This document shows positions 421 to 56,830 of a DNA stretch of 64,000 nucleotides, piece by piece. The stretch is from assembly GCF_000829395.1 (NCBI RefSeq), contig NZ_AP014680.1, forward strand, positions 248,001 through 312,000, in the 5' to 3' direction. The stretch's first letter is position 1. Each line of letters begins with the position of its first letter. A program made the position numbers and the translations under genes. Under the pieces are notes generated by a model, which worked only from the letters and a program-made list of their open reading frames with translations, had not been told where the DNA came from and made no database searches. The stretch comes from Paucilactobacillus hokkaidonensis JCM 18461. GTDB lineage: Bacteria > Bacillota > Bacilli > Lactobacillales > Lactobacillaceae.

Positions 421-590
421 TGCTCAGCTAGTTCAATTTTTATTGATTAAGTCACGTTAATGCTCAGAGCCTAACCACCTTTCTTCACACTCGTACTTGA
501 CTGTTCACCCATTAAATGGAATGATAAACGAGGAGTTATGTAAAATTTGGAGTGATAGTTTTCCATCTATCAGTTAAGGAGCGGAGTTTA

Positions 591-28141: not shown

Positions 28142-28828
28142 ATGGCAAAACTTGTATTGATTCGTCACGGACAAAGTGAATGGAACCTATCTAACCAATT
28201 TACTGGTTGGGTGGATGTTGATTTAAGTGAAGAAGGCGTTCAACAGGCTAAAAACGCCGGTGCTGCAATCAAAAAAGCAGGCATCGAGTTTGACTATGCG
28301 TATACTTCAGTTTTAACACGTGCCATTAAGACATTGCACTATGCTTTGGAAGGATCCGATCAACTTTGGGTTCCAGAAACAAAGACATGGCGTTTAAACG
28401 AACGTCATTACGGTGCATTGCAAGGCCAAAACAAAGCTGAAGCTGCTAAAAAGTGGGGCGACGATCAAGTTCATACATGGCGTCGTTCATACGATGTATT
28501 ACCTCCATTGTTGGATGCAAATGATGAAGGCTCAGCTGCAAAGGACCGTCGTTATGCTAACTTGGATCCTCGCTTGATCCCTGGTGGTGAAAACTTAAAG
28601 GTTACGTTGGAACGTGTTATGCCTTTATGGGAAGATGAAATTGCTCCTAAGTTACTTGATGGTCAAAACATCATTATCGCCGCACATGGTAATTCATTGC
28701 GTGCATTGAGCAAGTATATCGAACAAATCTCAGACGAAGACATTATCAGCTTGGAAATGGCAACTGGCCAACCAGTTGTTTATGACTTTGATGAGAAGTT
28801 GAATGTACTGGGTAAGGAAAAATACTAA
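28142..28828 (+). CDS. gpmA: 2,3-bisphosphoglycerate-dependent phosphoglycerate mutase
   Basis: It interconverts 3- and 2-phosphoglycerate in glycolysis. The 228 residues begin [14 protein letters not shown], with the phospho-His in RHG, followed by [13 protein letters not shown], the [13 protein letters not shown] motif and the second catalytic His in [12 protein letters not shown]. Length and motifs are standard. AAAGAGG lies before ATG 28142. It is a single-gene unit followed by the long hairpin at 28838. Confidence 0.95.
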
Positions 28829-28837
28829 ATTAAAATA

Positions 28838-28956
28838 GAGTGCAAACTAACTTGTTTAGCTTGCGTGGTGTAAAGACAAGGCCACCATTATGTTTCGTAC
28901 TTTGAAGCATGATGGTGGCCTTGGTTTTACACTCAGCCAGCTGAGTCAGTTTGCAC
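28838..28956. repeat. Long nested hairpin, copy A of an intergenic hairpin family
   Basis: Four stems nest. GTGCAAACT (28840-28848) pairs with AGTTTGCAC (28948-28956); TTAGCT pairs with AGCTGA with one G-U; GTGTAAA (28868-28874) pairs with TTTACAC (28926-28932); CAAGGCCACCAT (28877-28888) pairs with ATGGTGGCCTTG (28912-28923). It lies between convergent genes, directly after the gpmA stop. It shares a fixed sequence framework with the hairpin at 55493. Confidence 0.75.
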
Positions 28957-29008
28957 GATTGATCAGTAAAAAATGGTACTAAACTAAAATCTAAATGTAT
29001 GAGAATTT

Positions 29009-29092: not shown

Positions 29093-29587
29093 TTAATTGG
29101 CCACAAAATTATTTTCTGCTAAAAATGTCCAAAAGTTCATTGTTGGTACATTAAACTCATTGGCAACAAAGGGGATTTTTGGTTCATTATCAGATTTATT
29201 TCCGTTAGGACCAGTACTTCTTTCATCGGTCAGAATAGTATATGAATTTTTCATTGCACAAGCAATTAGCCAAGGATCAGCTTTTTCATATTTAGCTGTC
29301 CATTCTTGATAGCCGGCTGCTGTCCATAGATTAGACGCAAGTAAATATTGAGTAATTTGTGTATATTCAGCAATACAATCATCGGCTTTAATAATTTTAT
29401 TTTGATAGTTTTGTTTAGTCCAATTTTTTAAGTCATCATTCTTTGAGGTTAATTCATTGTATACACGATCCAACATATAAAAATGCGGTGTTTGCAGAAA
29501 AAAATGCCATACAACTGGGAAATATTGTTGTCGATAACGGCGGTTGGAGGTAATGAGAATATTTGAGTCTACTAAATAGCCGTTCAT
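29093..29587 (-). CDS. PIN-domain protein of the DUF4411 type (probable toxin)
   Basis: PIN domains are metal-dependent ribonucleases and common toxins. The 164 residues start MNGYLVDSNILITSNRRYR, with the first acidic residue in VDSN, followed by YNELTSKNDDL, KADPWLIACA and a late TDERS segment carrying the other acidic residues. The start overlaps the end of the upstream metalloprotease gene by four bases, so the two are translationally coupled. DUF4411 genes are often seen next to ImmA/IrrE-type genes, and the pair is read here as a toxin-antitoxin-like module. The target is unknown. Confidence 0.82.
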   Translation of the reverse strand: MNGYLVDSNILITSNRRYRQQYFPVVWHFFLQTPHFYMLDRVYNELTSKNDDLKNWTKQNYQNKIIKADDCIAEYTQITQYLLASNLWTAAGYQEWTAKYEKADPWLIACAMKNSYTILTDERSTGPNGNKSDNEPKIPFVANEFNVPTMNFWTFLAENNFVAN

Positions 29588-54486: not shown

Positions 54487-55491
54487 ATGCAAATTACAAC
54501 AGATATTTTTGGACAGCATCAAGGTAAAGACATTGAACGTTATACAATCACAAACCAAGCGGGTAACTTCATTCGCGTGATAACATTAGGTGCAACTTGG
54601 CAAGGATTTGTTGTTAATGGTAAACCGCTTATCGTCCATTTTGATAGTGTTGAGCGCTATGCTGGGCCAGCAAACTATTGCTTATGTAAATCTGTTGGTC
54701 GGGTAGCTGGGCGAATTGCTAATGCGACCGCCACTATTGATGGTAGAGAAACTCATTTTGATGCTAATGAGAATGGTAATACACTGCATGGTGGACCTAA
54801 TGGCTTTCCTGAATTAATCTGGAATGCTAAGACTGAAGTTCATGATAGTGATGCCAGTGTGATCTTTTCACGTCACATTCCAAGTACGGAAGATAACTTT
54901 CCTGGCGATTTGGATGCGAAGATTACTTTTACTTTCAATGATGATAACGAAGTTGCAATTACATTTGATGCGGCCACGACTGAATCGACCCTATTTAATC
55001 CAACTAATCATGCATACTTCAATTTAACTGATGGACAAAAAGATATTAGTAGTCAGCAGCTGCAAATTAATAGTAACCGATTGTTAGCATTGAATGATCA
55101 GAAATTACCAACAGGTAAATTCATTGATGTCAAAGGGACAGGTTATGACTTTACAAAAGCAACACGAGTTCCGGATGCATTAGCTAAAATTAAGTCACAG
55201 ACTGGAAAAATTGAAATTGATGATGCCTTTGAAGTGACACCGAGTGATGATCAGCCAATTGCTGTATTGAGTGATAGTAACAGTAATCGAAATGTGGCAA
55301 TTTATTCAGATCGTAACGGACTCGTTGTCTTTACTGCCAATCCAATAGATGATTCTAAACCATATAATGCAGTGGCAACGGAAGCACAAACGCTACCAGA
55401 TGCCATTAACCATGATGGATTTGGTGACACTGTATTGGAACCTGGCAAACCAAAACAGTATACGATTCGGTATAAGTATTACGAAAAATAG
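54487..55491 (+). CDS. galM: Aldose 1-epimerase (galactose mutarotase)
   Basis: It interconverts alpha and beta anomers of aldoses. The 334 residues show the GalM pattern: VITLGATWQGF, KSVGRVAGRIANA with the conserved Arg, ENGNTLHGGPNGF with the first catalytic His region, FNPTNHAYFNL with the second His, and the C-terminal VATEAQTLPDAINH segment with the catalytic Glu. AAAAGGAGAG precedes ATG 54487. It lies 45 bases after the sugar porter and probably shares its transcript. Confidence 0.92.
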   Translation: MQITTDIFGQHQGKDIERYTITNQAGNFIRVITLGATWQGFVVNGKPLIVHFDSVERYAGPANYCLCKSVGRVAGRIANATATIDGRETHFDANENGNTLHGGPNGFPELIWNAKTEVHDSDASVIFSRHIPSTEDNFPGDLDAKITFTFNDDNEVAITFDAATTESTLFNPTNHAYFNLTDGQKDISSQQLQINSNRLLALNDQKLPTGKFIDVKGTGYDFTKATRVPDALAKIKSQTGKIEIDDAFEVTPSDDQPIAVLSDSNSNRNVAIYSDRNGLVVFTANPIDDSKPYNAVATEAQTLPDAINHDGFGDTVLEPGKPKQYTIRYKYYEK

Positions 55492-55492
55492 A

Positions 55493-55617
55493 GAGTGTGA
55501 ACAACCGCGTTTAGAAGCTGGAGTGTAACGGTAAAATACCACTTATGGATGGTCGAGTTTTGACCATCCCTAAGTGGTATTTTGTTGTTACTTGTAAGCT
55601 TCTGCGGTTGTGAGCAC
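55493..55617. repeat. Long nested hairpin, copy B of an intergenic hairpin family
   Basis: Stems include AACAACCGC (near 55500-55508) with GCGGTTGT (55604-55611), AGAAGCT (55513-55519) with AGCTTCT (55597-55603), GTAAC with GTTAC (55587-55591), AAAATACCACTTA (55533-55545) with TAAGTGGTATTTT (55571-55583), and GGATGGTC with GACCATCC at the tip. As in copy A, it directly follows a plus-strand stop and lies before a convergent gene. Confidence 0.75.
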
Positions 55618-55741
55618 ATTTCGACAATAAAAATAGAGCAATGAAAAAGGTCGCATTTTGACCATCAAAGCGCAATAATTTTAAGTTGCATTAATATCTC
55701 TAAATGAACAAGTTCTACACCAAATATAACTATGTATTTTG

Positions 55742-56830
55742 CTAATTAATATAAGGTTTATAGTCAACATTTAGCCGGTTTGCGATTGCAATGATTTCTT
55801 CGAGCGTATGATCATCAATTTCAATTCCATTTTTACTACGGTCTTCGTATGCTAAGGCTTCTTTATCTCCATGAACATAAATAGTTTTACCAGGAATAGC
55901 TGGTAGCTCACGAATGTCCTGTAGGTATTCTGAAAAACGGTTAATGATCTGTTCCTTGTCGCCAAAAATTGATGGATCGATTGCAATGAAACTTTGACAT
56001 GGGCCAACCTCCAAATTTTCTGGAGTGATCTGAGTTGAAGTGTTTCCCATTGATAAAATTGAAGTGAAGACTTCAACGATAATACCAAGGCCAAAACCCT
56101 TGTGGCTACCAGTCGTTTCTGAAACGCCGCCAAGTGGTGCTAGTCCAACGTTTGCGTCTGGATCGCGTAGTAAATCAAGATCATGGGTATCGTTATGATC
56201 GTAGACTGGTTCGTTACCATTCTTAGCCACCCAGAGTGCTGGCAGATCTTTTTCTAGTTTGCGATAAACTTCGATTTTACCTTGAGGCACCGTGCTAGTT
56301 GCTGCATCAAAAATAAATGTGTGTGGTTTAGCCGGCATGGCAAAAGAAATTGGGTTGGTACCAACAAATGCCTTAGTAGCATGGGTTGGCAGCATTGCTG
56401 GCCTAGAGTTGGTAGAAGACATACCAATTAATCCTTGTTCTGCAGCCATGTTAGCATAAAAGCCCGCAATACCATAGTGGCCCGAATTTCTGGTCGTGAC
56501 AATTCCGATTCCATGTTCTTTGGCTTTTTTAATAGCAACGTTCATGCTGTAAATACCATTTAATTGTCCCAAACCAAAATGGGCATCAACTACGGCACTA
56601 ACATCAGTTTGTTTCACTATTTCTGGATGACTGGTTACTCGAATTTTACCGTTTTGAATGAAGTGATCATACATTACCATCCGTTGAACACCATGTGATT
56701 CGATTCCGTGAAGATCTGTGTAAATTAGAGTGTGAGCTACTTTTTCACTTTCATCTTCGGAAAAGCCATATGATTTGTAGACGTTGAATACTAATTGCTT
56801 AATTTTATTACTATCGTATCTTTTTATCAT
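55742..56830 (-). CDS. Ldh2-type malate/L-lactate (ureidoglycolate) dehydrogenase
   Basis: A 362-residue NAD(P)-dependent oxidoreductase of the Ldh2/MDH2/YlbC family, which does not use a classical Rossmann fold. Visible family motifs are HGIESHGVQRM, VVDAHFGLGQ, TTRNSGHYGIAGFYA, GTNPISFAMPA, and DAATSTVPQGKIE with the GSHKGFGLGIIVE block. Substrates in the family include malate, lactate, ureidoglycolate and 2-keto acids; none can be chosen here. The start at 56830 has GGTGAG just upstream. It is transcribed alone on the minus strand, with a long upstream region. Confidence 0.88.
   Translation of the reverse strand: MIKRYDSNKIKQLVFNVYKSYGFSEDESEKVAHTLIYTDLHGIESHGVQRMVMYDHFIQNGKIRVTSHPEIVKQTDVSAVVDAHFGLGQLNGIYSMNVAIKKAKEHGIGIVTTRNSGHYGIAGFYANMAAEQGLIGMSSTNSRPAMLPTHATKAFVGTNPISFAMPAKPHTFIFDAATSTVPQGKIEVYRKLEKDLPALWVAKNGNEPVYDHNDTHDLDLLRDPDANVGLAPLGGVSETTGSHKGFGLGIIVEVFTSILSMGNTSTQITPENLEVGPCQSFIAIDPSIFGDKEQIINRFSEYLQDIRELPAIPGKTIYVHGDKEALAYEDRSKNGIEIDDHTLEEIIAIANRLNVDYKPYIN

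Follow-up and report, generated by a model that had tools for sequence, protein, structure and literature searches.

Nested hairpins of 115–130 nt, dispersed over the genome of Paucilactobacillus hokkaidonensis and often docked on stop codons, represent a large and apparently uncatalogued family of structured gene-end elements in lactic acid bacteria. We narrowly favour (probability about 0.55, without transcript data) the reading that they are dispersed RNA elements of mRNA 3' ends with a terminator or stabiliser role.

Two copies lie in the window, i.e., the whole analyzed stretch of 64,000 nucleotides. They were scored with the covariance model R1, which was built from 12 copies from four Paucilactobacillus genomes (alignment A2). 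Both window copies are among these training sequences, such that their own scores are not independent. Features of the two loci are as follows, where A3 denotes an alignment of 47 diverse sequences.

28142..28828 (+): ORF ending 9 nt before copy 1; orthologues in 6/6 congeners
28838..28960 (+): hairpin element copy 1, whole (GAGTG ... CACGATT); R1 110.3 bits, E 2e-25; fold z -11.4
28840..28853 (+): copy 1 helix 1, 5' arm; fold, column pairs 3-16 in A2/A3
28854..28857 (+): copy 1 one-sided 5' bulge GTTT; unpaired in fold
28858..28864 (+): copy 1 helix 2, 5' arm; fold
28867..28874 (+): copy 1 helix 3, 5' arm (GTGTAA motif); fold
28877..28897 (+): copy 1 apical stem, 5' arm; 21 bp in fold
28898..28902 (+): copy 1 apical loop; fold
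28903..28923 (+): copy 1 apical stem, 3' arm; fold
28926..28933 (+): copy 1 helix 3, 3' arm (TTACAC); fold
28936..28942 (+): copy 1 helix 2, 3' arm; fold
28943..28956 (+): copy 1 helix 1, 3' arm; fold
28954..28960 (+): copy 1 3' terminal motif CACGATT; alignment A3, family consensus CRCGTTT
54487..55491 (+): ORF with its TAG stop 1 nt ahead of copy 2
55493..55621 (+): hairpin element copy 2, whole; R1 99.7 bits, E 1e-22; fold z -12.9
55495..55508 (+): copy 2 helix 1, 5' arm; fold
55509..55512 (+): copy 2 bulge GTTT; fold
55513..55519 (+): copy 2 helix 2, 5' arm; fold
55525..55556 (+): copy 2 5' arm of helix 3 and apical stem, with an A-tract ahead of the GC-rich core; fold
55560..55591 (+): copy 2 3' arm of apical stem and helix 3, with a T-rich tract behind the core (TATTTTGTTGTTAC); fold
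55597..55603 (+): copy 2 helix 2, 3' arm; fold
55604..55617 (+): copy 2 helix 1, 3' arm; fold

The ORF upstream of copy 1 we take to be gpmA, a name given by the first-pass annotation with no family search behind it; the one upstream of copy 2 we take, by look, to be an aldose 1-epimerase gene. Most claims of that annotation on the two copies held. A recount confirmed exactly the 23 identities claimed for the first 36 bases, aligned without gaps, and each copy does have GAGTG, GTTTAG and GTGTAA at offsets 0, 16 and 30. As claimed, the stems diverge in both arms while remaining paired, and both copies lie between convergent ORFs (28142-28828(+) and 29093-29587(-) for copy 1, 54487-55491(+) and 55742-56830(-) for copy 2), right behind a plus-strand stop. 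The proposed extent of 119 bases (28838-28956) held in part, the element being slightly longer (28838-28960); the first three bases of its CACGATT motif also close helix 1. The initial identity was rejected as weak evidence, as other 36-mers of the window reach 21–22 identities against copy 1. Both folds are exceptionally stable, with -70.8 kcal/mol (z -11.4) for copy 1 and -71.5 kcal/mol (z -12.9) for copy 2, and none of 200 shuffles was equally stable in either case. At window positions 471-492 (-), a degenerate 5' half-element of the GAGCATTAACG subtype was observed without a recognisable 3' half.

High copy number in the own genome is shown. The chromosome of the silage strain LOOC260T, published as Lactobacillus (now Paucilactobacillus) hokkaidonensis, comprises 2,277,985 bp; its description covers insertion sequences, prophages and conjugative elements and does not mention the present hairpins in the relevant sections (PMC4377027). 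A strict sequence pattern retrieved 8 copies, and none in a reversed control. Searching with R1 gave 136 matches. Of these, 129 do not overlap; 125 reach E < 0.001, and 121 exceed 60 bits. This search scored 150 of 1,623 candidates, and thus the count is a lower bound. The window together with 20 stretches of 20 kb revealed 18 places at E < 1e-4, only 11 of which were already listed, so the genome must hold at least the number of copies given here. These stretches were hand-picked, ten of them inside a suspected gap, and are not a random sample. An apparent shortage of copies in the mid-chromosome region was dropped, since the sampled stretches held copies missed by the candidate-limited search. 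In the counts of context, wobble and terminators below, the eight of the 129 matches at or below 60 bits are left out; four of the 129 have E > 0.001.

Copies are arranged singly, as tandem pairs and in one array of seven units with a period of 132 bp (C1:1640886-1641800). At one locus (L009, G000:C1:2192450-2192612, G000 denoting the own genome), one element apparently lies inside the apical part of another. Several otherwise unlike elements share an insert of ~50–60 bp (ACTTGTACTTGCCGG...CGGCATAGTACAA...) on the 3' strand, at the same point just past CTGCG (G000:C1 323291, 544284, 2161669 and 411744, with partial copies after 318317, 672080 and 2192497); this may be a second small element or an extra branch. 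Tandem repeats of a 3' half-element plus flank were seen behind complete elements in several genomes (G000:C1 2043894, 1688524 and 496399, the gpmA site of the congener G006 (L168), and loci of genome G069).

The wide distribution is likewise shown. For this survey, a second covariance model, R2, was derived from the 47 diverse sequences. Of 251 Lactobacillaceae genomes it matched 142, which belong to 24 of the 40 genera; as 14 candidates were scored per genome, copy numbers are capped there. Copy number is uneven between genomes. A draw from the order gave matches in 33 of 198 genomes, nine from the same family and 24 from six other families, several of them weak. Twenty loci from nine genomes of four other families, chosen among the better matches, all fold to the same nested plan. 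In the rest of the phylum none of 198 other genomes matched, the own genome being the sole match among 199. Plasmids of Enterococcus and Lactococcus carry the family, with 96 and 60 records for two queries, and the three copies folded are all single nested hairpins. A query from G069 retrieved only 14 of 72,556 plasmid records, a window copy as query none of them, and a phage search with a single query gave no match.

With Rfam 15, no match in the window reached the gathering threshold. Five element loci, compared at E up to 5, gave only matches below gathering, e.g., eukaryotic miRNA hairpins; these candidates were rejected as unrelated hairpins. The open-access literature searched does not describe the family for Lactobacillaceae; subscription journals were mostly not covered, so that absence is unproven.

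The family is defined by a common plan. From 5' to 3', a GAGYG start is followed by helix 1 (up to 14 bp), a one-sided 5' bulge, helix 2 (7 bp), a small internal loop, a third helix built on GTGTAA/TTACAC or a variant thereof, an apical stem that varies and a CRCGTTT end (A2, A3). The bulge comprises four bases (GTTT, GGTT, GCTT and others), and the 12 commonest types have a four-base stretch starting with G at this position. The two ends of the element pair in helix 1, but the sequence of this helix varies from copy to copy. The flanks are A-rich, and in 95% of 91 isolated copies the base at -1 is A.

Covariation is shown for all helices. Two-sided changes occur in 29 of 43 pairs among the 12 copies and in 38 of 42 pairs among the 47 diverse ones, the latter equalled by 1 of 500 shuffles. 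Cells with double changes number 600, compared with 181 in shuffled alignments and 123–169 in slid structures, and 0 of 500 shuffles matched this value. Helix 2 is paired in 98.8% of cells across the 47 sequences. These sequences were picked for diversity, the counts refer to cells rather than independent events, and copying between arms could conceivably inflate the signal. The first-pass annotation had spoken of the first of two copies, which understates the family by far (125 non-overlapping matches at E < 0.001 genome-wide, plus four weaker ones). Its suggestions of a dispersed hairpin element and of selection on structure are supported, by these 125 matches and the 142 of 251 family genomes, and by the 38 of 42 pairs with two-sided changes in 47 copies, respectively. 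It had named a lack of further copies or of stem covariation as refuting; both were found, and neither refutation applies.

Docking on stop codons is shown as well. We speak of docking when the stop of an ORF ends within -10 to +22 of element base 1, and consider only elements with a 5' ORF. An ORF of at least 80 codons terminates near the 5' side of 93 of the 121 own copies that score above 60 bits. Of these 93 stops, 71 dock, in the orientation of the gene, all ending between -9 and +22. The stop codon takes in element base 1 in 31 of the 93 copies (29 TAG, 2 TAA); in nine copies the ORF stops at the bulge-motif TAG (+22) and in five at an internal TGA (+8). One of the other 22 stops lies at +80 and 21 lie 62–282 nt upstream, 11 of them at 109–149 nt, about one element length; second members of arrays would be expected at this distance, which was not verified at individual loci. 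Of all 93 stops, docked or not, 59 are TAG, versus 88 of 327 elsewhere in the sample. For ORFs on the 3' side of own copies, no clustering relative to the element was found. In the own genome, 37 of 98 element sites lie between convergent genes.

Relatives were tested with 159 elements, leaving out opposite-strand echoes and duplicate loci. Docking was found for 19 of 25 elements in G001, which we take to be P. kaifaensis, 18 of 27 in G006, 16 of 24 in Secundilactobacillus and 10 of 18 in further genera. Outside this set, it was found for 11 of 15 elements in other families of the order. Counts for further genera rest on 22 elements, after removal of five elements of three congeners from a set of 27 elements and 16 genomes. 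In the annotation of the Lactococcus plasmid pVF18, one CDS has element base 1 as its last base. Docking is weak in G069 (5 of 16), where several copies start, by eye, beside an antisense ribosome-binding-site-like motif or right behind a T-tract. GTAG-type REPs reportedly supply TAG stops too, so that the trait has a precedent (PMC3733652).

A strand-biased wobble is shown by the mismatches, counted within stems picked by Watson-Crick pairing alone. On the sense strand, the apical stems of the own genome contain 320 G.T versus 31 A.C mismatches. Elements richer in G.T outnumber those richer in A.C by 108 to 4 in the own genome, 24 to 1 in G001, 31 to 0 in G006, 38 to 0 in G069 and 28 to 0 in Secundilactobacillus, while further genera show 15 to 0 with 7 ties. 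Helix 2 leans likewise in the own genome (39 G.T, 8 A.C) and in most groups, G069 being opposite (0 versus 4). Helix 1 has no such bias (25 G.T versus 26 A.C in the own genome, 1 versus 7 in G069). Copies of one genome are partly related, above all in G069, and hence independence is overstated. Since G.T exceeds A.C about tenfold in the inner stem, we infer from sequence alone that the folded sense strand is likely under selection, with RNA as its most plausible form.

This asymmetry bears on a DNA-level role, by which a folded single strand or a cruciform would be bound by a recombinase or nucleoid protein. In its favour, helix 1 lacks the G.T bias, different elements occur at one plasmid site, and the single-strand fold with its one-sided bulge resembles other hairpin recombination sites, which are generally known to fold single-stranded with such a bulge. 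Against it stand the strong sense-strand G.T excess of the inner stem in every group tested, the gene-linked orientation in most groups and the lack of a Y1 transposase in five copy-rich genomes. We regard this explanation as very improbable.

Comparison between species gives a second view of how the arms change. We compared 21 pairs of elements at orthologous gene ends (own genome versus G001 or G006); the counterpart was the best match of 124 in six pairs and among the top three in nine. From these ranks we infer that some copies were inherited in place, and others look swapped for other family members. Eight of the nine pairs ranking 1–3 were used to count changes; copy 1 and its G006 counterpart exemplify such an inherited pair with changes in the arms. 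The inner stem shows 53 double and 6 single changes and 6 unpaired positions, the outer part a less clean 14, 12 and 15, respectively. The lopsided ratio of the inner stem may hint at arm-templated copying beside selection.

An extreme form of this idea holds that covariation arose from mutation alone, i.e., that arm-templated copying in replication keeps palindromes perfect without selection. For it speaks the ratio of 53 double to 6 single inner-stem changes, which we infer to be more lopsided than drift via wobble intermediates suggests. However, arm copying would erase the one-sided bulge and could not on its own yield a tenfold G.T/A.C asymmetry, and position and motifs are conserved across families. 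This explanation can be all but ruled out.

Terminator-like cores are shown in Paucilactobacillus. A strict terminator pattern, in which a T-tract follows a GC-rich hairpin, fits 62 of 121 copies in the own genome, 22 of 29 in G001 and 23 of 33 in G006, and none of their shuffles. The detector is a strict one, being positive behind only 24 of 124 ordinary genes, where the hairpins begin a median of 19.5 nt past the stop. At the base of the apical stem, the 5' arm is A-rich in 111 own copies and T-rich in three, with seven ties; we infer a polarity as in bidirectional terminators. Within 80 nt downstream, a second terminator-like hairpin follows only 7 of 84 isolated own copies. Further genera show the pattern in 7 of 22 copies; it is rare in Secundilactobacillus (3 of 29) and G069 (1 of 40). 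The 5' arm shows no such preference in Secundilactobacillus (A-rich in 11 copies, T-rich in 12), and in G069 the preference is reversed (4 versus 25).

At the gpmA orthologues of four of six congeners (G001, G002, G003, G005), the 3' slot holds, by eye, an ordinary T-run hairpin. In G006 the slot is taken by two elements and partial copies, and in G004 by a probable remnant. In G003 (C54:11055-11156), the last 34 codons of the orthologue were observed to be duplicated ~150 nt past the gene, with a terminator in between.

A third alternative has to be weighed, namely that the elements are merely very long bidirectional intrinsic terminators, converged or copied. The terminator-like cores of right polarity in Paucilactobacillus, the 37 of 98 convergent sites and the ordinary terminators in the same slot of relatives support it. 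Against it, the GAGYG start, the bulge, helix 2 and the CRCGTTT end are conserved across genera and families, the T-tract pattern is rare in G069 and Secundilactobacillus, and the arms past the termination point covary: the outer 3' arms do so although termination at the apical stem would leave them untranscribed. Termination cannot be the whole function, since Secundilactobacillus and G069 hardly show the pattern and polarity is absent or reversed there, and docking is not due to termination alone, since copies of Secundilactobacillus dock yet lack terminator features. We consider this alternative unlikely. The first-pass claim that the element is something other than a simple terminator is thus half right, given a terminator-like core in about half of the own copies tested; the ordinary terminator in the gpmA slot of most congeners qualifies it further.

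The strongest competitor is a parasitic origin: a non-autonomous mobile repeat, MITE- or REP-like, would be moved by a transposase acting in trans and tolerated at gene ends, its structure serving mobilisation. High copy number, tandem arrays, the nested element, uneven counts between genomes, changes of array size and element swaps on plasmids, and carriage by Enterococcus and Lactococcus plasmids all fit. Moreover, the similar repeats BOX, RUP and SPRITE are deemed likely parasitic (PMC3049150).

On the other side, the Y1 transposase of IS200/IS605 type (PF01797) was not found in the own genome, G001, G005, G006, G069 and G076; it is present in G003, G008, G020, G059 and G073 (5 of 11 genomes). 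Mobilisation by an HUH transposase was rejected, as PF01797 is missing from the five copy-rich genomes (G000, G001, G005, G006, G069), which also counts against a parasitic repeat in general.

Four short plasmid alleles, candidates for empty sites, were rejected as such; they are internal deletions or array contractions, and all retain element ends. In three of them the internal deletion is clear. The fourth (L289) retains only ~11 terminal element bases and is most simply a deletion remnant too, though with less certainty. At the four plasmid sites neither a clear pre-insertion site nor a target duplication was found, and thus mobility is not shown. The target-site duplications that the first-pass annotation had named as a sign of a mobile element were not found, there being no clear pre-insertion site to examine. 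Array-size changes and element swaps occur at one plasmid site. In the gap between IIC and IIB of a plasmid PTS operon (L283, L290, L291, L289), closely similar flanks enclose two different members or a probable remnant; we infer, again from sequence alone, swapping of elements at a fixed point.

Few plasmid records (14 of 72,556 for the G069 query, none for the window copy) and no phage match with one query also speak against a parasite, as do the gene ends bearing elements in three species and the 9 of 21 pairs in the top 3 of 124. In detail, the same gene ends bear elements in three species, and 23 of 41 gene ends of relatives have an own match of at least 55% identity; of these, 20 bear an element on the list, two bear none and one has a decayed copy (39 bits). 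The share of 20 in 23 is biased upwards, since own DNA was compared mostly from around elements. Taken together, the parasitic repeat remains a serious contender, though one clearly less likely than not.

Our preferred reading, the RNA element of mRNA 3' ends, can be spelled out as follows. The element would start on the stop or no more than a few bases from it, and the sense-strand RNA would fold as a single long hairpin of nested stems. The apical stem of Paucilactobacillus copies, often equipped with an A-tract and a T-tract, could then act as a bidirectional intrinsic terminator, replacing the ordinary one of the gene. On read-through by the polymerase, the full hairpin would form and shield the mRNA 3' end. 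The copies would owe their past spread to transposition or gene conversion through unknown machinery. Termination, stabilisation and this past spread are inferred. Against the reading stand the lack of terminator features in Secundilactobacillus and G069, the weak docking in G069 and the absence of wobble bias in helix 1.

A bolder version is possible but rather improbable, in which the elements form an order-wide class of mRNA 3' ends in Lactobacillales. A ribosome terminating on the stop codon would cover helix 1 but leave helices 2 and 3 folded; its release would allow the outer helix to close and so link the end of translation with transcription termination and mRNA protection, and copies would multiply and move between gene ends as modular cassettes.

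If the preferred reading is true, very many gene ends of food and gut lactic acid bacteria bear an uncatalogued structured element. The family would then provide a natural test system for dispersed palindromes as parasites versus working gene-end parts, and would inform on the joint evolution of arms and on why elements end exactly on stop codons. The covariance model can be used for annotation immediately.

Among known systems, several share single traits with the family. Ordinary intrinsic terminators of Firmicutes share the A-tract, GC-rich stem and T-tract seen in 62 of 121 own copies; here, in contrast, the core is nested in two further conserved helices with fixed motifs and docked on the stop. 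The bcr1 repeats of the Bacillus cereus group are likewise short (100–400 bp in the bcr set) and numerous (up to 130 integral bcr1 copies per genome), but their mobility is tied to TTTAT motifs and they are confined to that group (PMC6542083). Integron attC sites, generally known to have RYYYAAC/GTTRRRY ends and an integron integrase, show a resemblance only, as a hairpin with a bulge.

EFAR and Efa-1 of Enterococci, which we take to be the same family, are dispersed, intergenic and strongly folded elements of the same order (PMC3733652, PMC2267715). Efa-1, with 163 bp and 65 copies, is near the present family in size (PMC2267715). It is described as two adjacent stem-loops (PMC2267715), unlike the one nested hairpin of 115–130 nt with a one-sided bulge; paired stem-loops of the Efa-1 type were not seen in the 20 other-family loci, all of which are single nested hairpins. 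EFAR (De Gregorio 2009) is reported to integrate into stem-loops, most of which are then deleted. EFAR might be a branch of the present family, without a sequence comparison to support it.

REPs and BIMEs are extragenic, mostly 3' of coding regions, plausibly act as RNA, and their ends often give TAG stops (PMC3733652). REPs measure 20–40 bp and have a GTAG or CGTC tag, with RAYT transposases for the GTAG types (PMC3733652); the present family, in contrast, has 115–130 nt, GAGYG and CRCGTTT ends, and no Y1 transposase in five copy-rich genomes. BOX, RUP and SPRITE of Streptococcus pneumoniae are small interspersed repeats of the same order, folded once transcribed, and SPRITE is also terminator-like and enriched between convergent genes (PMC3049150). 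However, BOX is modular, and SPRITE has an 18-bp duplex, a U-rich tract and AAAA/TTTT ends (PMC3049150). Their range comprises the pneumococcus, to a lesser extent S. mitis and rarely other streptococci, with BOX-related repeats in S. suis (PMC3049150), whereas the present family occurs in several families of the order, a contrast drawn without comparing sequences. The described repeats most similar to the present family are EFAR of the Enterococci, the REPs, and the pneumococcal BOX, RUP and SPRITE.
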